Origin: a virus
IMG/VR virus record: IMGVR_UViG_3300037324_000010
Coordinates: 1-27,396 of that record
DNA: 27,396 bases
Strand: one strand, 5' to 3'
Each line of letters starts with the position of its first letter. The first letter of the stretch is position 1. Position numbers and translations under genes: made by a program. The notes under the pieces are model-generated. The model was not told the origin of the DNA. It searched no databases and was given only the letters and a program-made list of their open reading frames with translations. Positions 7,779 through 27,396 of the stretch are shown here, one piece after another.

Positions 7779-7815
7779 CGCCGCTTAGTGGGCGGCCCGC
7801 GGGTTTCAGGGCTGG

Positions 7816-7989
7816 TCAGGCGTCACTAGGAGTGCGCCCTTTGTCATCTAATGCCCGCAACATCAAAGCCCCAGTGCCTGAATCGGCTAATAAGTGGTGA
7901 GCTGTGTGCGGGCAAAACAAAACCCCACCAATCCGAGCGGACGATGGGGAGCAGTTAGGCGGTGTCAGAATGCCCGCATTTGGGCACAC
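7816..7989 (-). CDS. Possible small Cys/His protein, 57 aa
   Basis: GTG start at 7989; a weak upstream purine stretch only. Cys residues near the start (VCPN), at NCSP, and in GGVLFCPHTAHHL give a possible Zn site, and the C-terminal part (ALMLRALDDKGRTPSDA) looks like ordinary coding sequence. It fills an otherwise empty 340-bp interval in the operon, which supports it. Other short frames overlap here, so the assignment is tentative. Confidence 0.4.
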   Translation of the reverse strand: MCPNAGILTPPNCSPSSARIGGVLFCPHTAHHLLADSGTGALMLRALDDKGRTPSDA

Positions 7990-8055
7990 CTGTAACGCGC
8001 ACAGTCAGGGTATCACGCGAACGCCCCGAATGGTAGGGGGCGCCCGCGTGTCGCC

Positions 8056-8730
8056 TTATGCTGCGCTCACTCCCATTTCTCGCAACGCATCCAAATCCAT
8101 GGTCGCCCGGACGGAGAAACCTAACTCCAACAACTCCCGGTCGCCCTCCCACCTTCGCAAGCACCGCCGACAATGCCCGACCGGTGATTGACCGCGCGAG
8201 TACGTCAAAATGACTGCCGTCGATTTGAGGCCCGCCGCGTCGAAATAGTCGGTGTGAGCACAACGCGGGCAGGGGGCTTGCAGTTCTTTGACGACGGGCG
8301 GATCGAAATACAAGTCAATGCTTGCTTTCCATTTGACGACCATTGATGACAGACGCGTGAACGTCGGCTCATCCAACCCGCCCGACCTGTACAGCGTGTC
8401 GGCCATTGTTGCCAGTTGGCTTACCGCTGATTTGAGTTCTTTGCTAGGGCGATCCTTTGACAGTTCACGAATCCATGAACGGGTGCCGCCGTCAATGTGT
8501 TCCCACAGTTCGAACGCTGCAAGGTCGATGAGGTTGCGTGAGCTGGCCTCCGACCTGCCACTACCGGTGCGCCCCGTCGATGAACGGCGCGCGTTGTAAA
8601 GCATGTCCAGCAACGGTTGTTGCGGAATGACCGTGTAGCCGGGGCGTCCCGTTTCTTGCGGCGAGAACACCATTTCCCACGGTTCGCAAAGCTGTTCGAC
8701 TGCTGTTCGAAGTTCGCTGTCTTGAATCAT
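8056..8730 (-). CDS. Zinc-ribbon phage protein, 224 aa
   Basis: ATG at 8730 overlaps the stop of a tiny upstream frame. The N-terminal 60 residues contain VIPQQPLLDMLYNARRSSTG, then a long helical middle. A zinc ribbon follows: CPRC (residues 154-157) and CRRC (187-190), then RRWEGDRELLEL. The C-terminus is a helix ending GVSAA. The ribbon suggests nucleic-acid binding. Similar architecture occurs in many actinophages without assigned function; no enzyme motif was found. Confidence 0.72.
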   Translation of the reverse strand: MIQDSELRTAVEQLCEPWEMVFSPQETGRPGYTVIPQQPLLDMLYNARRSSTGRTGSGRSEASSRNLIDLAAFELWEHIDGGTRSWIRELSKDRPSKELKSAVSQLATMADTLYRSGGLDEPTFTRLSSMVVKWKASIDLYFDPPVVKELQAPCPRCAHTDYFDAAGLKSTAVILTYSRGQSPVGHCRRCLRRWEGDRELLELGFSVRATMDLDALREMGVSAA

Positions 8731-8792
8731 GGCGTGGTGTCCCTTTCGGTCGCGTATGCAGCGTCGAGCAGTGTTGTCAACCGTTCACTCAT
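8727..8792 (-). CDS. Possible 21-aa peptide
   Basis: MSERLTTLLDAAYATERDTTP, from ATG 8792, ends in an ATGA overlap with the 224-aa gene. It overlaps the end of the preceding gene by 8 nt. Overlaps at both ends suggest a translated coupling peptide rather than a functional protein. It has no recognisable family. Confidence 0.4.
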   Translation of the reverse strand: MSERLTTLLDAAYATERDTTP

Positions 8793-9069
8793 GGGCTGCC
8801 TTTCCGGTCAGCAGTGCCAAAATTGCTTCGGTTAGCCGTTCTTCTTCATCCCACATGTAGGCGCGCGATTCGCTTGTTGCCGTCACGCTGAGTACCGCGT
8901 TTGCAATCGCTTCACGGCTGGGCATTTTGACGTAACCCGCCGCGATTATCGCGGTAGCCGCCCACTCAGGCACGACCTTCCATCCAGAGCTGTCGGGGTC
9001 GCGTTCGTAGTTGTTGCCGTTGTCAATGATTGCGGTGAGTTCGGCGTGGGCTTCTACGTCGTCACTCAT
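8785..9069 (-). CDS. Hypothetical protein, 94 aa
   Basis: Start chosen at ATG 9069 (MSDDVEAHAELTAII) because it overlaps the previous stop at 9062 by 8 nt; the longer open frame upstream is antisense-like and lies in another gene. Contains GWKVVPEWAATAIIAAGYV followed by MPSREAIANAVLSV and a C-terminal helix EEERLTEAILALLTGK. The pattern of a Trp-rich strand followed by helices is seen in several actinophage early proteins of unknown role. Confidence 0.65.
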   Translation of the reverse strand: MSDDVEAHAELTAIIDNGNNYERDPDSSGWKVVPEWAATAIIAAGYVKMPSREAIANAVLSVTATSESRAYMWDEEERLTEAILALLTGKAAHE

Positions 9070-9325
9070 GGGGTGCCTCATCGGTTTGCGAGTTGCGCTG
9101 AATCTGCAAAAGGAAATCCATCGGCAACTTTTCAATCGTGACTGCCGCATTGCCGGTGGCGACTTGCAACCGGCACTGTGGCGCGGGCTCGGGTTTTGCG
9201 TACTTATTCCATTGAGTCCACGCGCTTTCAAGCGTGCCCTCGAAAGTGCCGCCGTCATGCAAAACCACCACGCGGCTCCCCACGTCGTCTTGACGAAGGT
9301 CAGCCACCTCAATTTCATTCATCAT
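9062..9325 (-). CDS. Hypothetical protein, 87 aa
   Basis: Begins MMNEIEVADLRQDD (ATG 9325 or 9322). The N-terminal half reads as a small beta barrel: GSRVVVLHDGGTFEGTLES, then a later beta segment CRLQVATGNAAVTIE. The C-terminal part is polar (IQRNSQTDEAPHE). It could be an Sm- or OB-like small domain, but this is only an impression from the strand pattern. It is in the operon between a short acidic peptide gene and the 94-aa protein. Confidence 0.6.
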   Translation of the reverse strand: MMNEIEVADLRQDDVGSRVVVLHDGGTFEGTLESAWTQWNKYAKPEPAPQCRLQVATGNAAVTIEKLPMDFLLQIQRNSQTDEAPHE

Positions 9326-9428
9326 CGGCTGCTTCTTTCTCTTTCGCCAGCTTCGCCATCTCGGTTATTGCTTGCAGGGTCGCCCACAAACTGAGCACTT
9401 CCCCCTTGTCCGGGTCGCCGTCAGTCAT
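9315..9428 (-). CDS. Small acidic/helical protein, 37 aa
   Basis: From ATG 9428: MTDGDPDKGEVLSLWATLQ then a charged helix (EMAKLAKEKEAADDE). It overlaps both neighbours by 8-11 nt, typical of this operon. Too short for family assignment; the long helix suggests a protein-binding peptide. Probably real because without it a gap would break the chain of overlapping genes. Confidence 0.55.
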   Translation of the reverse strand: MTDGDPDKGEVLSLWATLQAITEMAKLAKEKEAADDE

Positions 9429-9573
9429 GCGACACCGCCACGGAGTTGTTGGGGCAGGCAATCGTGCTGACACCCCACGGGGTAACGCAATGCCCGCACC
9501 GATGGGGTGCCGGTTCGCGTAGTTGAGTGGACGGTTGGTATGCGGTCGAGTAGCCGCCAGTCATGTAACGCAT
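9421..9573 (-). CDS. Small Cys-containing protein, 50 aa
   Basis: Start ATG 9573 lies one base after the SSB stop (TGAGATG). The longer frame to 9636 would run inside ssb. Contains HRCGHC near residues 25-30 and a later IACPN, giving a partial zinc-ribbon pattern. Ends by overlapping the 37-aa gene. Function unknown. Confidence 0.55.
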   Translation of the reverse strand: MRYMTGGYSTAYQPSTQLREPAPHRCGHCVTPWGVSTIACPNNSVAVSHD

Positions 9574-9574
9574 C

Positions 9575-9973
9575 TCAAAAAGGCAGATCGTCGTTAGAAT
9601 CCCAGTTCGACTGTGCGCCCGTTTGCGGGGTTGCAACTGTCGAACGGGTGTCTGTACCGGAGGGCGCGGAAACCGGCTGAGAATCGCTTACAGCGTCTCC
9701 CGTAGCCACCTCAACGCGTGAACCGTTGATTGACCGCTTCACCACATGCACCGTGTTGCCGTCACGCCCCACAAAGTTGTCAACCTGATCGCCATGCACA
9801 CCCGACACTTTCACCACAGCACCCTCAGACAGTCCATGCTCCGTGTCAAACCAGCACGCCCACCGCGTTTCACCCTCACCCCCATCACGCTTCTTGAACT
9901 TCTCCGTAACCTCCGCACCCAACCCTTTGTAAAACGTGCGGGTGACGGTGCCCTTGATGTTTACGATTGCCAT
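9575..9973 (-). CDS. ssb: Single-stranded DNA-binding protein (OB fold)
   Basis: A 132-residue protein. The N-terminal part reads as an OB fold: IVNIKGTVTRTFYKGLG, then TRWACWFDTEHGLSEGAVVKVSGVHGD and NTVHVVKRSI. A Gly/Ser/Thr-rich linker follows, and the C-terminus is NDDLPF, the acidic-Phe tip by which bacterial-type SSBs recruit replication and repair proteins. The fold part is shorter and divergent from E. coli SSB, but the tail is diagnostic. GGAAGG lies about 10 bases before ATG 9973. It sits next to the initiator and loader-like genes, as expected for a replication module. Confidence 0.82.
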   Translation of the reverse strand: MAIVNIKGTVTRTFYKGLGAEVTEKFKKRDGGEGETRWACWFDTEHGLSEGAVVKVSGVHGDQVDNFVGRDGNTVHVVKRSINGSRVEVATGDAVSDSQPVSAPSGTDTRSTVATPQTGAQSNWDSNDDLPF

Positions 9974-10031
9974 TATTTGCAGCCTTCCTTAGCCCAGACG
10001 GGCGGTTGAGTGTTGGATGTTTCGGTGAAAG

Positions 10032-10448
10032 TCATGCGGCCCACCGTGCTTCGGTCGGCGCGAACCCGGCGGCGATCAGTTGTGCGTCGTACACGGCCAC
10101 CTCACGAGCGAACGCCGCCCGGTCATTCCACGCCGCACACATCGAATCCCAGTTCTCAGGCTTGGGCGCGGACGGGATCACGCCCGCCTCCAACTGCTTG
10201 AACTTCTCCGGTGTTGTGTCATTCGACGGTGTACGAGCGGCCCGCACACGCTTCACATTGGTACGCACATGGGCGGGTGTCAGATAGTCGGTGGTTTCCC
10301 GGCGGTGCATTCGCACAGCCTCAACCGCATCATCAAAATCAAGATCACCAATCGAATCAACCCACTCAAGAATCAGCTCACGGCTTGTCTCCCGGTTATC
10401 GCCCAAACGAATCTTTGCCACCACAGCGGCAACCTGTGCCGCGTTCAC
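10032..10448 (-). CDS. Probable helicase-loader-like replication protein
   Basis: A 138-residue, largely helical protein overlapping the initiator gene (ATGA). Begins MNAAQVAAVVAKIRLGDNR, then ILEWVDSIGDLDFDDAVEAVRMHRRETTDYLTPAHV. This N-terminal pattern is typical of small actinophage proteins encoded after an O-like initiator and thought to act as lambda-P-type loaders. There is no ATPase motif, so a DnaC-like ATPase is ruled out. Function is inferred from order (initiator, this gene, SSB). Confidence 0.6.
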   Translation of the reverse strand: MNAAQVAAVVAKIRLGDNRETSRELILEWVDSIGDLDFDDAVEAVRMHRRETTDYLTPAHVRTNVKRVRAARTPSNDTTPEKFKQLEAGVIPSAPKPENWDSMCAAWNDRAAFAREVAVYDAQLIAAGFAPTEARWAA

Positions 10449-11257
10449 GCGATCGCCCGCATGTCTGCTGCCCGGTCGAGTTCTGCCTGCAACTCAAGAC
10501 CCATCTGCAATGTTTCGTGGAACCGGTCAGACTGCGTGGGTTTGGCTGTGCTCGAGCGGGCTACCGGTGGCCCGTCGTTCCACCGTTCACCGTTCAACCA
10601 CGTTGCCGCGTGCGGGATGAACTCGAGCGCGGGCCGGTTGGGGTGTTGCGTGTACGTGTCCACGAATGCCAGCAAATCCAGGGCGGCAATCTTCGCCGTA
10701 GCTTTTGCCCACGCTTTGGCTGCTGCTGCTTTGCCCTCACTTCGCGGCCAGAGAGTCCAGAACTCCGTGAACAAACGATCGTCAGAAACAGACAAGTCTT
10801 TTGATCTTGTTAACTCTGTCTCTGTCTCTGTCTCTGTCTCTGCCATACCTTTGCCATCGGTTTGCCATTCGTTTGCCATAGCACTTGCCATCGGTTTGCC
10901 ATTCCACCGCTTGTTTGCGCCCAACTTTCCCGACACAGAACGCTTCGCAGACATCTCATCACGGTCAGCAGTCGTCTGCTGGTGGGCTGCATAGTCTCGA
11001 ATCACGTACTCATCCGCCGCTTCGTCGTGGAACATGAGAGGCCGGTCAGCGTGAGACGCACACAGCTCCACCACAACTTCAGACGCCCACATGCGGTGCA
11101 TCATCACAGCCGGAATGCGACCGTCCAGGTCTTGCATTCTTGAGTAACCGTTCATCTCCACAAACGCCCACTTCGCCTCCACGGTGAGCGGTGCAATTTT
11201 CGGGTGCATCCAAAAATCGTTCGGGAACGTCATATACAGACGCTTGTCCTTTGCCAT
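10445..11257 (-). CDS. Replication initiator / replisome organiser (phage O-like)
   Basis: A 270-residue protein. N-terminal 100 residues resemble a winged-helix replisome organiser: FPNDFWMHPKIAPLTVEAKWAFVEM, then AVMMHRMW and YVIRDYAAHQQT. The centre (about residues 118-155) is low complexity, with repeated PMA/AMA units and ETETETETE encoded by the iterons and hexamer repeat described separately. The C-terminal domain has FTEFWTLWPRSEGKAAAAKAWAKA and FIPHAATWLNGERW, a hallmark of phage replication proteins of this type. As in lambda O, origin-like repeats lie inside the gene. ATG 11257 overlaps the HNH stop by one base. Confidence 0.78.
   Translation of the reverse strand: MAKDKRLYMTFPNDFWMHPKIAPLTVEAKWAFVEMNGYSRMQDLDGRIPAVMMHRMWASEVVVELCASHADRPLMFHDEAADEYVIRDYAAHQQTTADRDEMSAKRSVSGKLGANKRWNGKPMASAMANEWQTDGKGMAETETETETELTRSKDLSVSDDRLFTEFWTLWPRSEGKAAAAKAWAKATAKIAALDLLAFVDTYTQHPNRPALEFIPHAATWLNGERWNDGPPVARSSTAKPTQSDRFHETLQMGLELQAELDRAADMRAIA
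10771..10813. other. AT-rich stretch beside the iterons (candidate unwinding element)
   Basis: The segment from about 10771 to 10813 is clearly richer in A and T than its surroundings (about 70% over its last 26 bases) and lies between the iteron/microsatellite block and the C-terminal coding part of the initiator gene. Position and composition suit a DNA unwinding element of an origin. This is inference from composition only. Confidence 0.45.
10814..10843. repeat. Hexanucleotide microsatellite (CTCTGT)x4 plus CTCTGC
   Basis: Five tandem hexamers, four identical. On the coding strand they encode alternating Glu-Thr (ETETETETE). Because the unit is 6 bp, slippage keeps the reading frame while changing the distance between the iterons and the AT-rich stretch by about half a helical turn per unit. 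Confidence 0.9.
10841..10902. repeat. Six iterons (TTGCCAT core) at 11-12 bp spacing, candidate replication origin
   Basis: TGCCAT starts at 10841, 10852, 10863, 10874, 10886 and 10897, so the steps are 11, 11, 11, 12 and 11 bp. The last five copies share TTGCCAT and four of them TTTGCCAT; two are followed by CGG. The period is about one helical turn and is not a multiple of three, so the repeats change codon phase. This points to selection on DNA, not protein. They lie inside the initiator gene, like the iterons of the lambda origin in O. Confidence 0.75.
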
Positions 11258-11652
11258 TACGCTGCTACTCCTATTCCTAAGTCGTGCATGATTTCGCGTG
11301 CCTCCGAGACGGTCAGTGCGGACACTTCACCGGCATCACCGAGCAGCACCCAGCCGTGTACGGCGTGCTCAACGGGCACTCGCGTCGGGTCGGCATAGCG
11401 GGACACCTTCAAGCCGCGTCGCACCGCTTCGGCCTGCATGTCTGCGTCAGCCTCAATTGCCCCGTTGATGAGGCTGTCTAGAAGTACGCCGTTTGACAGT
11501 CGGTTGGCGAGCTTCGAGCCGCCCATGCCGCGCCCAATTCGATGCTGGGGCACTAGACGATCAGATGTGTCACCCGTCCACGCGCACCGGTTGTCATCCC
11601 GTACACGCATGGCGTTCACCTGTTTGACGGTGAAGCCTGTGCGGGCGGTCAT
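11257..11652 (-). CDS. HNH-type endonuclease, 131 aa
   Basis: Contains RDDNRCAWTGDTSDRLVPQHRIGRGMGG (shown here in pieces: CAWTG at residues 23-27, VPQHRIGRGMGG at 34-45), then NRLSNGVLLDS and NGAIEADADM. This is the HNH pattern of a group of actinophage nucleases, with His37 and the Asn of NGVLL as the metal and catalytic residues. It lacks the second Cys pair seen in the terminase-associated HNH at 4807, so it is a different subfamily. It lies between initiator and recombination genes and may be a homing-type or DNA-processing nuclease. Confidence 0.75.
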   Translation of the reverse strand: MTARTGFTVKQVNAMRVRDDNRCAWTGDTSDRLVPQHRIGRGMGGSKLANRLSNGVLLDSLINGAIEADADMQAEAVRRGLKVSRYADPTRVPVEHAVHGWVLLGDAGEVSALTVSEAREIMHDLGIGVAA

Positions 11653-11999
11653 GCGGGCACCGCCATGCTGTGACCGACCGTGCGCACCGGGGTCAACCCG
11701 ACAAACACGCGGTCGTCTTTACGCGGGCCAACAATGCGAACTGTGCGCATTTCGACGGTCGCCAGCTTCGACCCCGGCCACAAAAACATGGATTCGTGTG
11801 CGCCCACGATTGCGTCGTGTTCACTGTCGAACCACAACGTCAGCCCGCAACCGTTGCCGCCAACCTGCGAGCCGCTGACGGTCACTCGGTAGCAGTACTC
11901 ATCCCACTCGACAAACACGGCTGATGGCGGTTTGAGGGGCTGCTGTACCTGCTTGACCGGTTCTATGTCGAACAGCGTCAACGCCATCTGCACGCTCAT
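11649..11999 (-). CDS. Hypothetical protein, 116 aa
   Basis: Overlaps both neighbours by 4 nt (ATGA). Starts MSVQMALTLFDIEPVKQVQQ, then a beta-rich body: AVFVEWDEYCYRVTVSGSQ, LTLWFDSEHDAIVGAHESMF and LATVEMRTVRIVGPRKDDRVFVGL. No catalytic motif was recognised. The conserved overlap and good codon character show it is real; the role within the recombination/replication block is unknown. Confidence 0.65.
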   Translation of the reverse strand: MSVQMALTLFDIEPVKQVQQPLKPPSAVFVEWDEYCYRVTVSGSQVGGNGCGLTLWFDSEHDAIVGAHESMFLWPGSKLATVEMRTVRIVGPRKDDRVFVGLTPVRTVGHSMAVPA

Positions 12000-12205
12000 G
12001 CGGCCAACACCCTTGAACGCAACTTCTCCCGTTCAACCTCACCCCGAAACAGGCAGGCAAGATCGGCGCGGCCAAACCGTCTCAAACCAATCTCCAACGC
12101 GTTCGCCTTGACCCCCAACGCTTCAACAATCAGCGCCGCAGACACGCCGCCAGCCATAAGCCAAGCAACCTCATCAGCACGCTCTTGCATGGTCATGCGC
12201 TTCAT
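11996..12205 (-). CDS. Small helix-turn-helix protein, 69 aa
   Basis: Reads MKRMTMQERADEVAWLMAGG, then VSAALIVEALGVKANALEIGL, a helix-turn-helix in which GVKANALEIGLRRFGR would be the recognition helix. Small single-HTH proteins of this kind are common in actinophage early operons. It ends RSRVLAA, an ssrA-like terminal tripeptide. ATGA overlaps on both sides. Regulatory target unknown. Confidence 0.7.
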   Translation of the reverse strand: MKRMTMQERADEVAWLMAGGVSAALIVEALGVKANALEIGLRRFGRADLACLFRGEVEREKLRSRVLAA

Positions 12206-12471
12206 GCCGCAACCTCAGAGTGTGCGACAACCTGGAACGACTGCGCACGGCGAAACTCAACCCGTCGCGCCTCATGGTTACGACGCATACTCCGATCAGC
12301 CCACCCACCCGGCCTCTCACGATCCAACCGGCGCACCACACTGTCCAACGTCAACGCCGACTGCACGCCCCGCTCGAACTGCAACAGGTCAACGTCAATA
12401 CCGGCAACAAAGTTCGCCCACGCCGTCGAATGCGCATCCACAAGGTCTGGGGTTGGCTGGTCGGCGTTCAT
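12202..12471 (-). CDS. Hypothetical protein, 89 aa
   Basis: Starts MNADQPTPDLVDAHSTAWANF and continues with DVDLLQFERGVQSALTLDSVVRRLDRERPGGW and a strongly basic C-terminal region (RSMRRNHEARRVEFRRAQS). The basic tail suggests nucleic-acid contact. No family recognised. ATGA overlaps with the partners on both sides place it in the recombination operon. Confidence 0.6.
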   Translation of the reverse strand: MNADQPTPDLVDAHSTAWANFVAGIDVDLLQFERGVQSALTLDSVVRRLDRERPGGWADRSMRRNHEARRVEFRRAQSFQVVAHSEVAA

Positions 12472-13079
12472 TCGCCAACCGCCGCAACAAAGTCAGGGTG
12501 CGCCTCATCGACGATTGCAGCGGGTTGCTTTGCCCGCACATACTCGGCACGGATCACACCCAACACGACCGGCCCCGCGTGAGCTGCCTTAGCCGCCCCA
12601 CCCAACGCGCCAATAAGGTCAACGTCGCCGTCAGCCGCCGCCAACTCTTTCAACCAGTCGCGCCCCGACGTGTCTTTGGGCGGTTCAACCGGTTTGAGGG
12701 GCTGCACGGTGAACGGGAGACGACGGCCACGGGTGACGGTGAGGGACACTTTGTGCGGTGCGTCAATGTGTGACATGTGCGAAATTTGGATCCCGCCAAC
12801 CTCATCCTTCCCAAACCGGATCGTCGGGTTGCGGAACAACGTCAACTGGTGTCCAACATGATCTGCCGACTCGACACCCCACGCCGACACCATCACCCGA
12901 CGCATCGACTTTGACGGTTTGTAGGGTCGCTCCGGCCCGAACTCGGCGGTGACTACGTTCACCGGCTGTTCAGCGTTACCCGTGATCACGTCAACGATGG
13001 TGACCGTGACAGGCCCACCAATAAGGTCGTCAGCGTTCAACTGATCCGACTTCGGGGCAATGCTTTCGGTGAGGTTCAT
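12468..13079 (-). CDS. Conserved phage protein partnered with RecE-like nuclease
   Basis: About 203 residues. Start ATG 13079 overlaps the exonuclease stop as ATGA; the longer frame to 13172 lies inside that gene. The central domain has DDLIGGPVTVTIVDV, RPYKPSKSMRRVMVSAWG and GGIQISHMSHI, a recognisable widely distributed phage domain, likely OB-like, found beside exonuclease or replication genes. It is not a RecT, Erf or Sak protein by any motif I can see. A role in single-strand handling during recombination is inferred from its partner. The C-terminal 70 residues are helical. Confidence 0.68.
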   Translation of the reverse strand: MNLTESIAPKSDQLNADDLIGGPVTVTIVDVITGNAEQPVNVVTAEFGPERPYKPSKSMRRVMVSAWGVESADHVGHQLTLFRNPTIRFGKDEVGGIQISHMSHIDAPHKVSLTVTRGRRLPFTVQPLKPVEPPKDTSGRDWLKELAAADGDVDLIGALGGAAKAAHAGPVVLGVIRAEYVRAKQPAAIVDEAHPDFVAAVGE

Positions 13080-13924
13080 GCGTATTCTTCCTCTGCGTAA
13101 ATGGCCCACATGGGCGGCTGTAAGGGGTCGCCGGTTGTTGCATATCCGGGCCACGAATTGGTTCGGGCACACTCGGCATGTAATGCGCGAGCGCGGGCAG
13201 CGGCGGATGCACCGATTTCCCTGAACTGGTCGGACAGTTCATGCACGGCCAGCAGGTAGGGGGCAGCCGTTTCGACCACAACGAACTTCATGCCGAGATC
13301 GGCCAGCCCGGTCGTGAACGCGTACGTGTCCAAATACCATTCCTGTTGAATGTGGTATCCGTAGTTGGCAACCGTTTTGACGAACTCATGCGGTGCCGCC
13401 GACTTGCCCGTTGTTTTCAGATCCACGCTGTACGGGTTGCTCACCGTGAAGTCGGGCAGGAAATCAAACCGCGCGCGCATCTCCACACCCGTTGTGGGGT
13501 CGGTTGCGAACACGGACGCCTCAGCCATTCCCGACTGTTCAAACAATGACCGTGCCTGCGGGTGCGATAGGACACTTTCGGCCATACCGTTCACGTGCCT
13601 CAACTGGGTTGCGGTGAGCAAGATTTGACCCGCCGCACGTTGCCCTGCCACCCATTCGACGGTTGCCGCTTTCGTGGACACCGACCCGGATGGGGTCAAG
13701 TGTTCGTCCGGGTAGGCGACGGCTAAAGTGCCGGTGCCAAGCACGCGACTGTGAACTGCCGTGCCCAGGTCGTAAGCGTCTTTGTGTGGTTGTGGGTTGT
13801 GTTGTGCGTGGTGGAATCGGGCGGGTGAGTCGAGAAGCAGCCGTGCGCCTGTTGAAGACAGGGCGTGGTGTGCGTGGTAGGTGGTTTCGTCTAGGTCTTT
13901 GACGACACCCTGCAAGTCGGTCAT
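13076..13924 (-). CDS. RecE-like exonuclease (PD-(D/E)XK, exonuclease VIII type)
   Basis: A 282-residue nuclease. Family features in order: LSSTGARLLLDSPARF near residues 22-37; GTAVHSRVLG with His58; AEASVFA with Glu135; GVEMRARFDFL with Asp154; YSVDLKTT with Asp168 and Lys170; then QQEWYLDTYAF. These form the PD-(D/E)XK core of the RecE/DUF3799 group, which degrades double-stranded DNA 5' to 3' to leave single strands for annealing. A RecT-type annealase is not visible; the overlapping downstream gene may take that place. Start ATG 13924 overlaps the resolvase-like gene. Confidence 0.85.
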   Translation of the reverse strand: MTDLQGVVKDLDETTYHAHHALSSTGARLLLDSPARFHHAQHNPQPHKDAYDLGTAVHSRVLGTGTLAVAYPDEHLTPSGSVSTKAATVEWVAGQRAAGQILLTATQLRHVNGMAESVLSHPQARSLFEQSGMAEASVFATDPTTGVEMRARFDFLPDFTVSNPYSVDLKTTGKSAAPHEFVKTVANYGYHIQQEWYLDTYAFTTGLADLGMKFVVVETAAPYLLAVHELSDQFREIGASAAARARALHAECARTNSWPGYATTGDPLQPPMWAIYAEEEYA

Positions 13925-14331
13925 GATGCGTCCTTCGTCATCGGGTCAAGCACAATCACTGGGCGTTCGTCAGCGCCGCCCTCAAGGAGTTGCACGAACG
14001 TTTCCAACGTCATCGACACGTACTGATCGGCAGGCTTGTTCGAGCCGTGCCGCTTATGCACAACCACACCAATTGCGGCGTCATCGTTGCCGCGTTCAAT
14101 CTCCGCCTGACGAATCCACAACGGCAGGTTGTCGCGCGACACGTTTTTGACCTCAATGACCACGCGCCCGCCGCGAATCGTGCGCACCCCGCCAACGTCG
14201 CCGCGATCCTTAGCACCGTTCTTCACACGCCGGTCAATGCGGTCGTCATCCAACGCAAACTTGAGGTAGTCGGCAACGAGCCGTTCAAACGAACTGCCCG
14301 CCTTCTTCGCGGTCGCACGACTGCGCACCAT
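13921..14331 (-). CDS. Holliday-junction-resolvase-like nuclease (Hjc-type PD-(D/E)XK)
   Basis: A 136-residue basic protein. GSSFERLVADYL places Glu16 in the first helix, KDRGDVGGV gives Asp45, and RVVIEVKNVSR gives Glu60 and Lys62: the E, D, E-x-K series of archaeal Hjc-type and related phage resolvases. KNGAKDRGD is a typical lead-in. Such enzymes cut branched DNA made in recombination or replication before packaging. It overlaps the RecE-like gene by 4 nt, and no separate RuvC-like enzyme is present. A VRR-NUC-type nuclease is the alternative. Confidence 0.78.
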   Translation of the reverse strand: MVRSRATAKKAGSSFERLVADYLKFALDDDRIDRRVKNGAKDRGDVGGVRTIRGGRVVIEVKNVSRDNLPLWIRQAEIERGNDDAAIGVVVHKRHGSNKPADQYVSMTLETFVQLLEGGADERPVIVLDPMTKDAS

Positions 14332-14489
14332 CAGCGGCTGCTTTCGTGGTCGGTGTTACAGGTAAGGCACTGCCAACCGCTCCACCGCGTTTCCGGGTCG
14401 TACCAAACATCAGCACGGGACTCGTAAGTGCACGCCTTGCAGGTACGCCACGCCTTGAACTCGGTCACGTCAACGCCAGACGTGCGCAT
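14331..14489 (-). CDS. Zinc-ribbon protein, 52 aa
   Basis: ATG 14489 overlaps the upstream stop as TGATG; the longer frame is not used because it would lie inside the membrane-protein gene. CKAC and CLTC, 22 residues apart (RTCKACTYES ... GWQCLTCNTDH), form one zinc ribbon. Its stop overlaps the resolvase start by one base. Likely a nucleic-acid or protein-binding accessory; function unknown. Confidence 0.7.
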   Translation of the reverse strand: MRTSGVDVTEFKAWRTCKACTYESRADVWYDPETRWSGWQCLTCNTDHESSR

Positions 14490-14665
14490 CAGAAGAACAC
14501 CGCCACGAAAACACCGACCACCGTAATGAGCACGCCCAGGGTGAACGCCGACCCGATTTGTGCCCACTGCCACCGTGCCCGCGACCGTTCTTGCGCCGCC
14601 GTGATCGGGCGTGGATAGCGTGACGGCAACGGGGCACAGCACGGGAAATCGTCAAGGGTGTTCAC
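14489..14665 (-). CDS. Single-pass membrane protein, 58 aa
   Basis: GTG start at 14665 overlaps the upstream stop (GTGA), and the stop overlaps the next ATG (TGATG). The N-terminal 35 residues are polar and basic (TAAQERSRARWQWAQ); the C-terminal 20 residues are a membrane segment (FTLGVLITVVGVFVAVFF). The topology would leave the N-terminus in the cytoplasm. Small early membrane proteins near immunity genes are sometimes superinfection-exclusion factors; here that is only a possibility. Confidence 0.7.
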   Translation of the reverse strand: MNTLDDFPCCAPLPSRYPRPITAAQERSRARWQWAQIGSAFTLGVLITVVGVFVAVFF

Positions 14666-14841
14666 AACGTCACGCCCATAACGGATGCCGCCGCACCGTA
14701 ACCAGCCGCATACGATGACGCAGCGGTTGCCGCGATCAACGCCCGCAACGTGTCGAGGTTGCCGTCGAGTGCGGCCATGACCAACCCTGCGTAGTTGTCC
14801 ATGATTTGGTCGGCAGCCATTTCGCCGTATGTAGGGGTCAT
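14662..14841 (-). CDS. Hypothetical protein, 59 aa
   Basis: Start ATG 14841 chosen because it overlaps the upstream stop as ATGA; a Met at 14856 is five codons earlier. Sequence MTPTYGEMAADQIMDNYAGL then an Ala-rich helical stretch (RALIAATAASSYAAGYGAAA). It ends in a GTGA overlap. No family recognised. The Ala-rich segment is weakly hydrophobic and is not a convincing membrane helix. Confidence 0.6.
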   Translation of the reverse strand: MTPTYGEMAADQIMDNYAGLVMAALDGNLDTLRALIAATAASSYAAGYGAAASVMGVTL

Positions 14842-15161
14842 GAGGTCACCGTCCACACGCGAGCGTTACGCCCTGCCGGGGTGCGCTTCAACGCGCCGTC
14901 CACAATTTGCACGCGCCCCTGCTCTTGCAGTTCTTTGAGTGCCGTGCGAACACGGGAGCTGGAGAAGAACCCAGCCAGCGCCCCTTCGATTTCGAACGCG
15001 GCCAACTGGCGCCGTTTGTCGAAACAACGCAACACCCACATTTGCGAATCGCACACGTTGTTACTGTCGGCGGCTTGGTGGGAGGTCAGTGGATCGGTCT
15101 TGCGGGTGCGTGCAGTGTCGTCCGGCAGGATCATCGGCGGTAGCATGTCGGTGCTGGGCAT
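14838..15161 (-). CDS. Winged-helix-like protein, 107 aa
   Basis: ATG 15161 is preceded by GAAAGG. The N-terminal 35 residues are a flexible region with TRKTDPLTSHQAAD, typical of small phage winged-helix proteins. The body has QMWVLRCFDKRRQLAAFEIEGALAGF, then SSSRVRTALKELQEQGRVQIVDG, a wHTH with the recognition helix around RVRTALKELQ. It is near cro and probably regulates early genes or replication. The same TDP-TSHQAA start is seen in related phage proteins. Confidence 0.72.
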   Translation of the reverse strand: MPSTDMLPPMILPDDTARTRKTDPLTSHQAADSNNVCDSQMWVLRCFDKRRQLAAFEIEGALAGFFSSSRVRTALKELQEQGRVQIVDGALKRTPAGRNARVWTVTS

Positions 15162-15183
15162 TGGGTTGCCTTTCTTTTCGGAG

Positions 15184-15206
15184 ACCCCCGCTAGTACGGG
15201 GGTTTT
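15184..15206. terminator. Hairpin ACCCCCG/CGGGGGT, U-run on plus strand
   Basis: Perfect 7-bp arms (15184-15190 and 15197-15203) with a 6-nt loop, followed by TTTT on the plus strand. In leftward mRNA the U-run precedes the stem, so it would not terminate the early operon; it could block rightward antisense transcripts or structure the leader of the 107-aa gene. Confidence 0.5.
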
Positions 15207-15208
15207 CG

Positions 15209-15391
15209 TCATTTGTGGAGCAGGTTTGGAAACGGTGTGGAGTCCACTTCTACGGCGGGCGGCACGTCGGCTAGTTCCTCGACGGGTTCGAGCGCGACCG
15301 GCAGCGACCGGATAAGCCCCCACGCGGCCACGTAAATACCAGCCAGCGCGGTGAGCACGAACACCCACAACACGACCTCCAGGCCGGTCAC
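15209..15391 (-). CDS. Membrane protein, 60 aa
   Basis: GTG start at 15391 overlaps the upstream stop (GTGA). Starts with a membrane segment (LEVVLWVFVLTALAGIYVAAWGL), followed by a cytoplasmic or external acidic, Pro-rich tail (EPVEELADVPPAVEVDSTPF). It is the third small gene after cro. Such pairs of tiny membrane proteins in the immunity-proximal region are candidates for exclusion or membrane-stress functions; unproven. Confidence 0.68.
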   Translation of the reverse strand: MTGLEVVLWVFVLTALAGIYVAAWGLIRSLPVALEPVEELADVPPAVEVDSTPFPNLLHK

Positions 15392-15495
15392 TTCGAACCC
15401 CGCGCCTGCACGAACGCGACGATGAAATACGCGGCCCATGCGGTGACGGCCAACACGGTTAGTGCGGTTGCGTCTGCGGCCATGTCGCCGGTCAT
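15388..15495 (-). CDS. Very small membrane protein, 35 aa
   Basis: ATG 15495 overlaps the Cro stop as ATGA, and its own stop overlaps the next GTG. The peptide has one membrane segment (ALTVLAVTAWAAYFIVAFV) and a basic end (QARGSK), so the C-terminus should be cytoplasmic. Below usual length cut-offs, but exact overlaps on both sides and the well-formed membrane helix support it. Confidence 0.65.
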   Translation of the reverse strand: MTGDMAADATALTVLAVTAWAAYFIVAFVQARGSK

Positions 15496-15710
15496 GCGGC
15501 ACGCACGCTGTAGAAGGCAGACACGGGAACGTCAAAGGCATGAGCCAGGCGCCCGATCTCCCACGCCGCAAACGGAATGTTGCCCGTCATGCGCTGGTTG
15601 ACCGAGCCGCGAGACATTCCGAGAATGTCGGCGATGGTTTGCTGGTTGGCACGCTTTTCGGCGGCTACCCCACGGACTCTGTCCGCGATGTGAATCATTT
15701 CGTCTGGCAT
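15492..15710 (-). CDS. Cro-like HTH regulator (first lytic gene)
   Basis: About 72 residues from ATG 15710; an ATG at 15731 adds seven residues and cannot be excluded. HTH region QQTIADILGMSRGSVNQRMTGN is typical of XRE/Cro proteins. It is transcribed divergently from the repressor across a 110-bp control region and heads the leftward lytic operon, the position of cro in temperate phages. Its recognition helix (GSVNQRMTGN) resembles that of the repressor (STLQSRMTGD), so both likely bind the same operators. Ends in RAA. Confidence 0.8.
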   Translation of the reverse strand: MPDEMIHIADRVRGVAAEKRANQQTIADILGMSRGSVNQRMTGNIPFAAWEIGRLAHAFDVPVSAFYSVRAA

Positions 15711-15795
15711 AACGCCCACTGTGGCACACATTTAGGACAAGCGAGCACCAAGCCGTCCGGCGTGTCGCCCGGTTAGGCCAGAGTTGGCGTCAGAA

Positions 15796-15813
15796 TGTCC
15801 AGGAATGTAGACA
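15796..15813. promoter_or_regulatory. Dyad TGTC-N10-GACA, candidate operator in immunity region
   Basis: TGTC (15796-15799) and GACA (15810-15813) form a small dyad over the -35 box of the repressor promoter. A GGACA half-site also lies at 15735-15739 near the Cro start. These are candidates for repressor/Cro binding; short dyads occur by chance, so confidence is low. No clear leftward promoter for cro was found in this interval. Confidence 0.35.
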
Positions 15814-15836
15814 AACGAGCAGGGAATCAGTACAGT
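15808..15836 (+). promoter_or_regulatory. Candidate repressor promoter (TAGACA-17-TACAGT)
   Basis: TAGACA (15808-15813) and TACAGT (15831-15836) are 17 bp apart, and the ATG at 15844 begins 7 bases after the -10 box, so the transcript would be leaderless, as at the two promoters near 5.9 and 6.3 kb. An alternative pair, TTGGCG (15784-15789) and TAGACA with 18 bp, is also possible. Confidence 0.5.
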
Positions 15837-15843
15837 GACCGGT

Positions 15844-16209
15844 ATGGAAGCCCAAAGAAAACCAGACCCCTACAAAGCGCTGCAATATGCGCGAGCCGCA
15901 CACCTGCGAGAACTCTTCGAGCCGTGGACGTACCGGAAGCTGGAAATGAGAACGCGCATTGGAAGGTCAACCCTGCAATCTCGAATGACTGGAGACACTG
16001 CGTTGACGATTCAGGAAATTGAAACCCTCGCGCCTGTCATTCGCATGAAGGCTGAGGAGTTGTTTTCGGAACTGATGGGAGTGAAGCTCCCCGACTTGGA
16101 CTCGAACCAAGAACCTGCCGGTTACACGCTTCACCACGTTGACGCCGATACAACAGCGACCATTGAGCACACTGCCGACGTTCTGCATTTTCGTCCGCGC
16201 GCCAGCTGA
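15844..16209 (+). CDS. Immunity repressor carrying attP inside its coding region
   Basis: A 121-residue HTH protein. Start ATG 15844 preferred over GTG 15835 because the GTG overlaps the promoter -10 box. HTH: YRKLEMRTRIGRSTLQSRM, then TIQEIETLAPVI. Residues 85-93 (LDSNQEPAG) are the translated antisense of a tRNA T-arm and anticodon stem, i.e. the attachment core. The viral form continues 28 residues to HFRPRAS. Integration would replace these by host sequence; with tRNA-Asn the next codon becomes TAA, giving 93 residues. This matches mycobacteriophage BPs, where only the truncated prophage form is a stable repressor. The stability difference is inferred here. Confidence 0.82.
   Translation: MEAQRKPDPYKALQYARAAHLRELFEPWTYRKLEMRTRIGRSTLQSRMTGDTALTIQEIETLAPVIRMKAEELFSELMGVKLPDLDSNQEPAGYTLHHVDADTTATIEHTADVLHFRPRAS
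16086..16124 (-). other. attP core: 3' half of a tRNA gene (best fit tRNA-Asn)
   Basis: Read on the minus strand, the segment forms a T-arm (CTTGG, TTCGAGT, CCAAG at 16095-16111), a variable loop AGGTT, the 3' strand of an anticodon stem CCGGC, bases UAA of an anticodon loop, and on the other side the acceptor strand TCGGGGA with discriminator G. U1-A72 plus G73 fits bacterial tRNA-Asn better than tRNA-Thr. Homology ends inside the anticodon loop, the usual crossover zone for tyrosine integrases. It is not a full tRNA gene. Confidence 0.8.
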
Positions 16210-16298
16210 CCGAGCGTGCAGCAAGAACAAAAAACGCGCCCGATTCAGTAAACGAGATTAGATCGAACTTCCACTCACAGTAGAGAAACGGAAGCGCC

Positions 16299-17117
16299 AT
16301 GATCGACGCATACGCCCAACACTTAGCCGCAGCAGGTAGAGCCGCGGGAACTATAAAACTACGCACAGCACACCTCACACACTTGAGCCGCCATTACGAC
16401 CTCACCACAGTGACAACCGGGCAGCTTGAGCAAATGCTCGCCGCCCGACGTGACACGCACTCGGCAGAGTCCCGCAAATCGTTGCGCTCAAGCTACCGAT
16501 CTTTCTACCGTTGGGCTGACCGTACCGGGAACGTGACATTCAACCCCGCCGCAGACCTGACACCGATCACGGTACCGGTGAAGGTTGCCCGCGTTGCCGC
16601 CGACGACGTACTACAACACGCGCTCATCGTTGCCGACGAATGGCAGACGGCCATGATTTACCTAGCCCGATTTGCCTGCCTGCGCCTCACCGAACTGACA
16701 ACCCTCCACAGCAAGCAGCGCACCAATGACGAGTTGCGCATCGTCGGCAAGGGTGACAAAGAACGCGTCGTGTATTGCAACGACGACCTCATGCATTCAC
16801 TGCTCACACTGGAACGCATTCAGGGTCGCGGCTACTACTTCCCCGGACGCATCAGCGGGCACATGCACTCCGCCAGTGTCAACAAAATCATGACCCGCCT
16901 GACCGGATGCAACCCTCACTCACTCAGGCACGCCGGTGCAACCGCCGCTTACAAAGCGACCGGTGATCTGCGCAGCGTTCAGCTCATGCTCGGCCATTCG
17001 AGTATGGCAACCACGCAACGCTATTTGCATCCGGGGGTAAACGAGTTGCGTGCAGTCGCGGCAGGTACCGCGTTCGTGTCAAAAGACACCCGTTTTCGGG
17101 TGAGTGTTGCCGCGTAA
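16299..17117 (+). CDS. int: Tyrosine-family site-specific integrase
   Basis: A 272-residue tyrosine recombinase. Catalytic set all present: Arg129 (FACLRLTEL), Lys151 (VGKGDKER), His207 and Arg210 (HSLRH), His233 (LGHSS), Tyr242 (TQRYLH). The N-terminal 90 residues are a core-binding SAM-like domain. The protein is short and seems to lack a separate arm-binding domain, so it may be XerC/D-like in its needs. No xis gene was recognised. It ends RVSVAA, an ssrA-like tail; ClpXP turnover through such a tail controls lysogeny in BPs. It lies 89 bp downstream of the repressor and 175 bp from the att core. Start has GAGAAACGGAAG upstream. Confidence 0.93.
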   Translation: MIDAYAQHLAAAGRAAGTIKLRTAHLTHLSRHYDLTTVTTGQLEQMLAARRDTHSAESRKSLRSSYRSFYRWADRTGNVTFNPAADLTPITVPVKVARVAADDVLQHALIVADEWQTAMIYLARFACLRLTELTTLHSKQRTNDELRIVGKGDKERVVYCNDDLMHSLLTLERIQGRGYYFPGRISGHMHSASVNKIMTRLTGCNPHSLRHAGATAAYKATGDLRSVQLMLGHSSMATTQRYLHPGVNELRAVAAGTAFVSKDTRFRVSVAA

Positions 17118-26611: not shown

Positions 26612-27396
26612 TTAGGAAGCGCCACCAATGAAGTGCTTGACGGCTCCGGTCTGATCCAGCAGCACGCCGTCGCCACGAACAAGGCAACGGAATGTCACCT
26701 GGTCGGTGTTGAACGCGAACTCGTCGGAACGCTCGAACCGGATTCCACCAGCAAGGCGCACGTAGTACGCGCTCATGTCACCGAAGGCAACCGAGCGTGC
26801 GCCAAGACCCACGGCGGCCACGTTCGGGTCGGTAGCAACCGGCGTGCCCAGGATCGTGTCAGGCGCACCCGCAAGTCCCGGAACCCACAGGTAGTTGTTG
26901 TCCGAACCCTTGAGCTTGCGCACAGTGGCAAGGGTTTGGTCGCGCATCAACCATGCAGCTGACGGTGAGTTGCGGTAAGAGCTGATGACCGAGTAGTACA
27001 GGTCAATCAGGTTGTCCGCAGTAAACGCACCTACAGCAGCGTTGGCACCGGTGACACCCAGCGTGGTGCTGGTCATCAGGCCGGTCGGCTGGCTCGAACC
27101 GCTACCCGCAACAAGGTGAGCGCCCAAAGCGTTACCAACCGCACGGCCAGCCTGCGCCGACAGGTAACCCTCAAGGTCAACCCCAGTGTCGTCCACCAGC
27201 TGACGGGGCGCCTGAATGAGCGTCGCGTACTGGTACCCGTTCAACGTGCGAGTGGCGAACACCGGGTCAGACTCAGAAATGGCTGTGTTCTCAGCGGTCA
27301 ACGCGGCACTGCTGTGCGCGGTGGTGACCGGGAACTCCAAAGGCTCCCCACCCGTGGTACGGATGACGGTTGCGAACTGGAGTAGCGCCGCATTCT
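26612..27396 (-). CDS. Major capsid protein, C-terminal part (starts at 605 across the join)
   Basis: The frame enters from the window edge in phase with the 605-1 segment and ends with TAA at 26612. It holds most of the HK97 fold: PVTTAHSSAALTAENTAI, FATRTLNGYQYATLIQAPRQLVDD (E-loop and spine region, in part), AGRAVGNALGAHLVAGSGSSQP, then ISSYRNSPSAAWLMRD and a C-terminal GDMSAYYVRLAGGIRFERSDEF. The end GVLLDQTGAVKHF is also typical. Bases 27213-27396 repeat 1-184, so the real gene uses each only once. Confidence 0.94.
   Translation of the reverse strand, partial: NAALLQFATVIRTTGGEPLEFPVTTAHSSAALTAENTAISESDPVFATRTLNGYQYATLIQAPRQLVDDTGVDLEGYLSAQAGRAVGNALGAHLVAGSGSSQPTGLMTSTTLGVTGANAAVGAFTADNLIDLYYSVISSYRNSPSAAWLMRDQTLATVRKLKGSDNNYLWVPGLAGAPDTILGTPVATDPNVAAVGLGARSVAFGDMSAYYVRLAGGIRFERSDEFAFNTDQVTFRCLVRGDGVLLDQTGAVKHFIGGAS
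27213..27396. repeat. Assembly overlap, right copy
   Basis: Same sequence as 1-184 with one silent difference at 27340. Collapsing it gives a circular unit of 27212 bp. Confidence 0.95.

Follow-up and report, generated by a model that had tools for sequence, protein, structure and literature searches.

The small temperate phage described here very probably carries an integration-dependent immunity system (we put the probability at about 0.88), in which attP lies inside the repressor gene, a host tRNA-Asn gene would serve as attB, and the C-terminal tail of the repressor would be lost on integration. The window, meaning the whole stretch of 27,396 nucleotides that was analysed (IMG/VR record IMGVR_UViG_3300037324_000010), is a virus record of 27.4 kb in which genes for head and tail, lysis, replication and recombination were recognised. 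In support of this reading, six related prophages were found in which the repressor N-terminus, the core and a TAA codon are joined at attL and the detached tail remains in frame at attR. It is further favoured by an integrase that, among named phages, is nearest to those of clusters CW and G, by a repressor end in -AS as in Angel gp33, and by the A135E change that stabilises the BPs repressor. Published cases of integration-dependent immunity concern Mycobacterium, Gordonia and Bifidobacterium phages and a small number of others; a literature search of incomplete coverage returned no description from Microbacteriaceae.

Organisation of the immunity region

The features of the region are as follows.

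15492–15731, minus strand: Cro-like HTH protein of 79 aa, divergent to the repressor, C-terminus -VRAA (BetR, E 2.6e-7; PHROG repressor, 4.9e-8)
15796–15813, no strand assigned: candidate operator TGTC-N10-GACA, tentative, present also in L091 and L092
15808–15836, plus strand: promoter-like TAGACA-17-TACAGT for the repressor, from a consensus scan, with equal spacing in L091 and L092
15844–16209, plus strand: viral-form repressor, 121 codons and stop, the N-terminal half a putative HTH regulator (open reading frame; homologous prophage repressors)
15844–16122, plus strand: predicted prophage form of 93 residues, ending LPDLDSNQEPAG; TAA is the next codon in 6/6 related attL and at three empty tRNA-Asn sites
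16086–16124, minus strand: attP common core, the 3' half of tRNA-Asn(GTT), antisense to the repressor; 39 bp identical in L087, L088 and L089
16123–16209, plus strand: detachable tail of 28 residues, YTLHHVDADTTATIEHTADVLHFRPRAS, and stop; in-frame tail conserved in L007 and L011
16299–17117, plus strand: tyrosine integrase of 272 aa, C-terminus -SVAA (Phage_integrase, E 3.4e-17; PHROG integrase, 3.8e-33)

The region thus displays an attP core within the repressor reading frame, a Cro-like gene divergent to the repressor across the control region, and an integrase with an SsrA-like C-terminus, all of which are features of integration-dependent immunity. No separate arm-binding domain was recognised in the integrase. 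The repressor matched a PHROG transcriptional regulator (phrog_3557) at E 0.0019, so that the HTH assignment is weak when taken from the window repressor alone. A PDB profile search gave no match, and an AlphaFold model built without an alignment was discarded (pLDDT 42).

The start of the repressor may also be read as a GTG at position 15835, which would give a protein of 124 aa. The ATG at 15844 appears the better start, since the promoter-like element ends 7 nt upstream of it and both homologous prophage repressors (L091, L092) have an ATG equally spaced from a like promoter and repeat. So short a distance between promoter and ATG suggests a leaderless message. The TGTC-N10-GACA repeat overlaps the promoter -35 element and lies exactly 30 nt upstream of the ATG in the window, L091 and L092; it showed no enrichment across the whole window, and we tentatively regard it as a candidate operator.

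The switch can be pictured as follows. In the free phage, the 121-residue repressor would be unstable or inactive through its C-terminal tail, and the lytic genes would run. The integrase would then carry out recombination between the phage core (39 bp) and the tRNA-Asn gene of the host. At attL this would join the repressor N-terminus through the core to the antisense host tRNA, so that translation would end, after Gly93, at a TAA of the anticodon loop. With the tail lost, the short repressor would be stable and the lytic promoter shut, while the tRNA would be rebuilt. Given the SsrA-like ends of the integrase (-SVAA) and the Cro-like protein (-VRAA), host proteolysis would probably set the frequency of lysogeny. 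We infer that the phage integrates at tRNA-Asn, that proteolysis is set off by the tail and that the active repressor is probably the 93-residue form.

The tRNA-Asn core and the junctions of six related prophages

The initial annotation had placed the 3' half of a tRNA, antisense, in the repressor frame, and the comparison with complete genes confirmed this exactly. Read on the minus strand, positions 16124 down to 16087 of the window are TAACCGGCAGGTTCTTGGTTCGAGTCCAAGTCGGGGAG, an exact antisense tRNA match that base 16086 extends to 39 bp. The complete genes with a matching 3' half were tRNA-Asn(GTT), and unoccupied copies identical over all 39 bp were found in three genomes of the Microbacteriaceae group. 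An exact tRNA match of 39 bp in a 27-kb sequence is not a matter of chance. Rfam and ARAGORN reported no tRNA in the window, as expected, because only half a tRNA is present there. A collection of named phages yielded no DNA match, either to the immunity region or to 25 kb of the window. No lysogen of the phage itself was seen, and we infer its host and, from other genomes, its attB at tRNA-Asn.

The codon after Gly93 is TAC (16123–16125). At the three empty sites the host sequence after the core reads GGTTA/ACAG, in which the first host base is A and not C, and joining at tRNA-Asn would therefore turn TAC into TAA and leave 93 residues instead of 121. On paper, the shortening proposed in the initial annotation is hence reproduced exactly by the empty attB sites, and the same anatomy was observed in the six related prophages.

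These prophages were obtained by searching 400 genomes, from the family to which genome G015 (Microbacteriaceae) belongs, with the window integrase and scanning the best-match genomes for the tRNA-Asn core. Two core copies, 17.6 to 46.7 kb apart, bounded a prophage in G053, G019, G075, G069, G203 and G382, and their integrases were 45–59% identical to that of the window. In all six, attL held a whole tRNA-Asn, as found with ARAGORN, which the N-terminal part of a regulator entered antisense and in which it stopped at the TAA of the anticodon loop. The truncated repressors ended, each directly before the stop, in LPELDSNQQPAG, LPHLDSNQEPIG, LPVVDSNHQPAG, LPRLDSNQQPAG, LPGLDSNQEPAG and LPEMDSNHQPAG. 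At attR, beside the integrase, the core led without a change of frame into a tail of 31–41 residues that the lysogen had lost (6/6). Both junctions fit the proposed switch in all six. The repressors of G019 and G075 were 63% and 59% identical to the window repressor, and the N-termini of the remaining ones matched phage repressor families. The core is free of stops in all three frames, and every case used the frame that stops in the anticodon loop; the use of a single frame is therefore not forced by the tRNA. A further search of 396 genomes of the order returned only the already-found prophage.

Two kinds of candidates were set aside. In L030 (Microbacterium sp. STN6), a presumed tRNA-Met attL/attR pair had no repressor at attL; the segment at 7800–16735 is an island of 8.8 kb flanked by two copies of a tRNA-Met core, and it carries a related integrase along with genes of cation-efflux and arsenic type. 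Distant integrases (<40% identity) beside other tRNAs showed the design inconsistently and were left out of the count. In L091 and L092 the repressor frame crosses, shortly ahead of the core (about 1466–1500), a terminator-like hairpin that encodes GPASEETGPK, and the phage there seems to carry the terminator of the tRNA gene too; the window is without that hairpin.

Conservation and possible action of the detachable tail

The viral form of the window repressor ends in -RPRAS. Between the window and the close relative IMGVR_UViG_3300037862_000091, the tail end ADVLHFRPRAS was kept and the middle of the tail had diverged. Four of the 11 codons of this end differ and three of these four changes are synonymous, a small number of changes that limits the test; the pattern points to selection on the protein. 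The tail protein sequence was conserved between relatives whose repressor N-termini differ.

This conservation bears on two readings in which the tail has no part. Many tyrosine integrases use tRNA genes, so that attP might merely overlap the end of the repressor gene in an ordinary tRNA integration, both forms being active and the tail having no regulatory role. We consider this very unlikely, as the same frame and the same stop recur in six prophages, the tail is conserved as protein despite different repressor N-termini, and the layout equals that of the proven BPs system. The second reading holds that the junction acts mainly through RNA, with tRNA transcription toward the repressor, or a repressor message antisense to the tRNA, setting the repressor level. 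The tRNA at attL does read toward the repressor and the hairpin of L091 and L092 stands just before the core, but no such hairpin occurs in the window, no role of this kind is described for the like convergence in MabB and MabK (PMC8092301), and tail conservation would be left unexplained; this reading seems to us extremely improbable.

A switch governed by loss of the tail remains the preferred reading. The initial annotation had taken the non-AA end as a possible sign of a different signal. That argument does not hold, because Angel gp33, which stands in for BPs as the cluster G member in our sequence comparison, ends in LDKAS, the stabilising BPs mutation is A135E, and BPs and several M. 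abscessus repressors have no -AA tag (PMC8092301). Angel gp33 has 136 residues, with Cys (TGT) at residue 104, and A135E, which was found in the 136-residue form of BPs (PMC4557955), fits its penultimate Ala. By sequence, the -AS end of the window resembles that of BPs, the founding member.

In a rival account the switch exists but the tail acts otherwise, by blocking DNA binding or assembly, or as a protease signal unlike SsrA and lacking an SsrA-like C-terminus. Tails without an A-rich end do occur in the related set (L055, -VVNR; L056, -RARQ; L042, -RTHG), and proteolysis may for this reason not be the mechanism in all members; alternative signals have been proposed for some M. abscessus repressors (PMC8092301). 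A loose V-[VIL]-x-[LF] stretch also lies inside many tails of Mycobacterium, Gordonia and Microbacteriaceae phages (ADVLHF, AVVIPL, PVIPLR, AVVTEL). Against such an action, the two BPs forms are alike in DNA binding and it is the long one that is degraded (PMC4557955), the window tail ends in -AS like cluster G repressors, and the shared stretch is only modestly above shuffles: a blind motif search over 20 tails reached a score of 146, the shuffles averaging 128 and peaking at 139, with no single clean motif aligned. We regard V-[VIL]-x-[LF] as a tentative shared motif, and an action of the tail other than through an SsrA-like signal as unlikely, though far from negligible. Host tmRNA tags in the host group end in ALAA or, once, ALAV. 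Upstream of the L078 integrase, which is only about 34–38% identical, a tail following another tRNA core ends in NPVITLFPRAS, similar to ADVLHFRPRAS in the window.

Relation to known systems and exchange of the immunity block

The closest integrases of named phages were those of Gordonia cluster CW (36–37% identity) and mycobacteriophage cluster G (33%), both of which use integration-dependent immunity (PMC5559632). BPs makes a 136-aa viral repressor that is degraded and a 103-aa prophage form that is stable (PMC4557955). The window shares with BPs and cluster G (gp33 repressor, gp32 integrase) an attP in the repressor gene, a codirectional integrase of the tyrosine family downstream, a divergent Cro-like gene, a stop made by the host base beside the core, a similar loss of residues (33 in BPs, 28 in the window), and a tail end in -AS (as in Angel). 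The two differ in attB (tRNA-Arg in BPs, tRNA-Asn for the window) and in host; the repressor N-termini showed no detectable sequence relation, and the window integrase ends in -SVAA. Gordonia cluster CW phages (GMA5, Emperor) likewise have small genomes, attP in the repressor and a detachable tail, but their attB is tRNA-Lys and their repressor tails end in -VAA or -AAA. The M. abscessus prophages, likened by description, have tails with or without -AA and, in several, a stop from the first bacterial base at attL; they use other attB sites, some outside tRNA genes.

The host-supplied stop codon had been proposed as a difference from BPs. It is shared instead: in BPs, a Cys codon becomes a stop through the host base pair adjoining the core (PMC9262239), and in M. 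abscessus prophages stop codons arise from the first bacterial base, with the tRNA of the MabB and MabK prophages transcribed toward the truncated repressor (PMC8092301). As host-made stop codons and tails without -AA were both already known, the window is a member of a known system. Added here are a new host family and tRNA-Asn as a new attB, together with relatives whose whole immunity block was exchanged with its border exactly at the att core. The results extend integration-dependent immunity to a group of phages and prophages from Microbacteriaceae, all at a single tRNA-Asn site, and supply attL and attR junctions in matched pairs; the set of six prophages and relatives forms a natural experiment on what a detachable tail must contain.

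The exchange was seen in two close relatives, IMGVR_UViG_3300028361_000133 and IMGVR_UViG_3300037862_000091, whose integrases are 96–97% identical to that of the window and which have the core and tail in frame, with a repressor N-terminus unrelated to the window's. Alignment to IMGVR_UViG_3300028361_000133 gave 90–100% identity over about 1000 bp rightward from the core; leftward, identity was at background (about 50–68%) for roughly 700 bp and then 86–91%. The replaced stretch, about 15340–16086 of the window (against L013 and L014), has one border exactly at the att core. This step in identity at the core indicates that the control region, cro and the repressor N-terminus were exchanged as one block, and the att core may be a recombination joint for immunity exchange. 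Brujita and Fishburne are a parallel case, in which tails and integrases are nearly identical and the repressor N-termini differ.

It has been argued that, for such phages to form tandem lysogens, their repressors must lie in different frames (PMC9934374). As all tRNA-Asn members share one frame, one repressor should stay tagged after a second insertion, whichever att site it used. That all three propositions hold together, namely a tail signal other than the classical SsrA-like end, a tagged repressor after tandem insertion and immunity-block exchange through the shared core, we consider quite doubtful.

No overlap was found between the ends of the window. The right end (26612–27396) carries a major head protein gene without its N-terminal part, and the left end (1–708) carries the head protease that normally precedes that gene; the contig may represent an almost complete circular genome, its break falling within the capsid gene.
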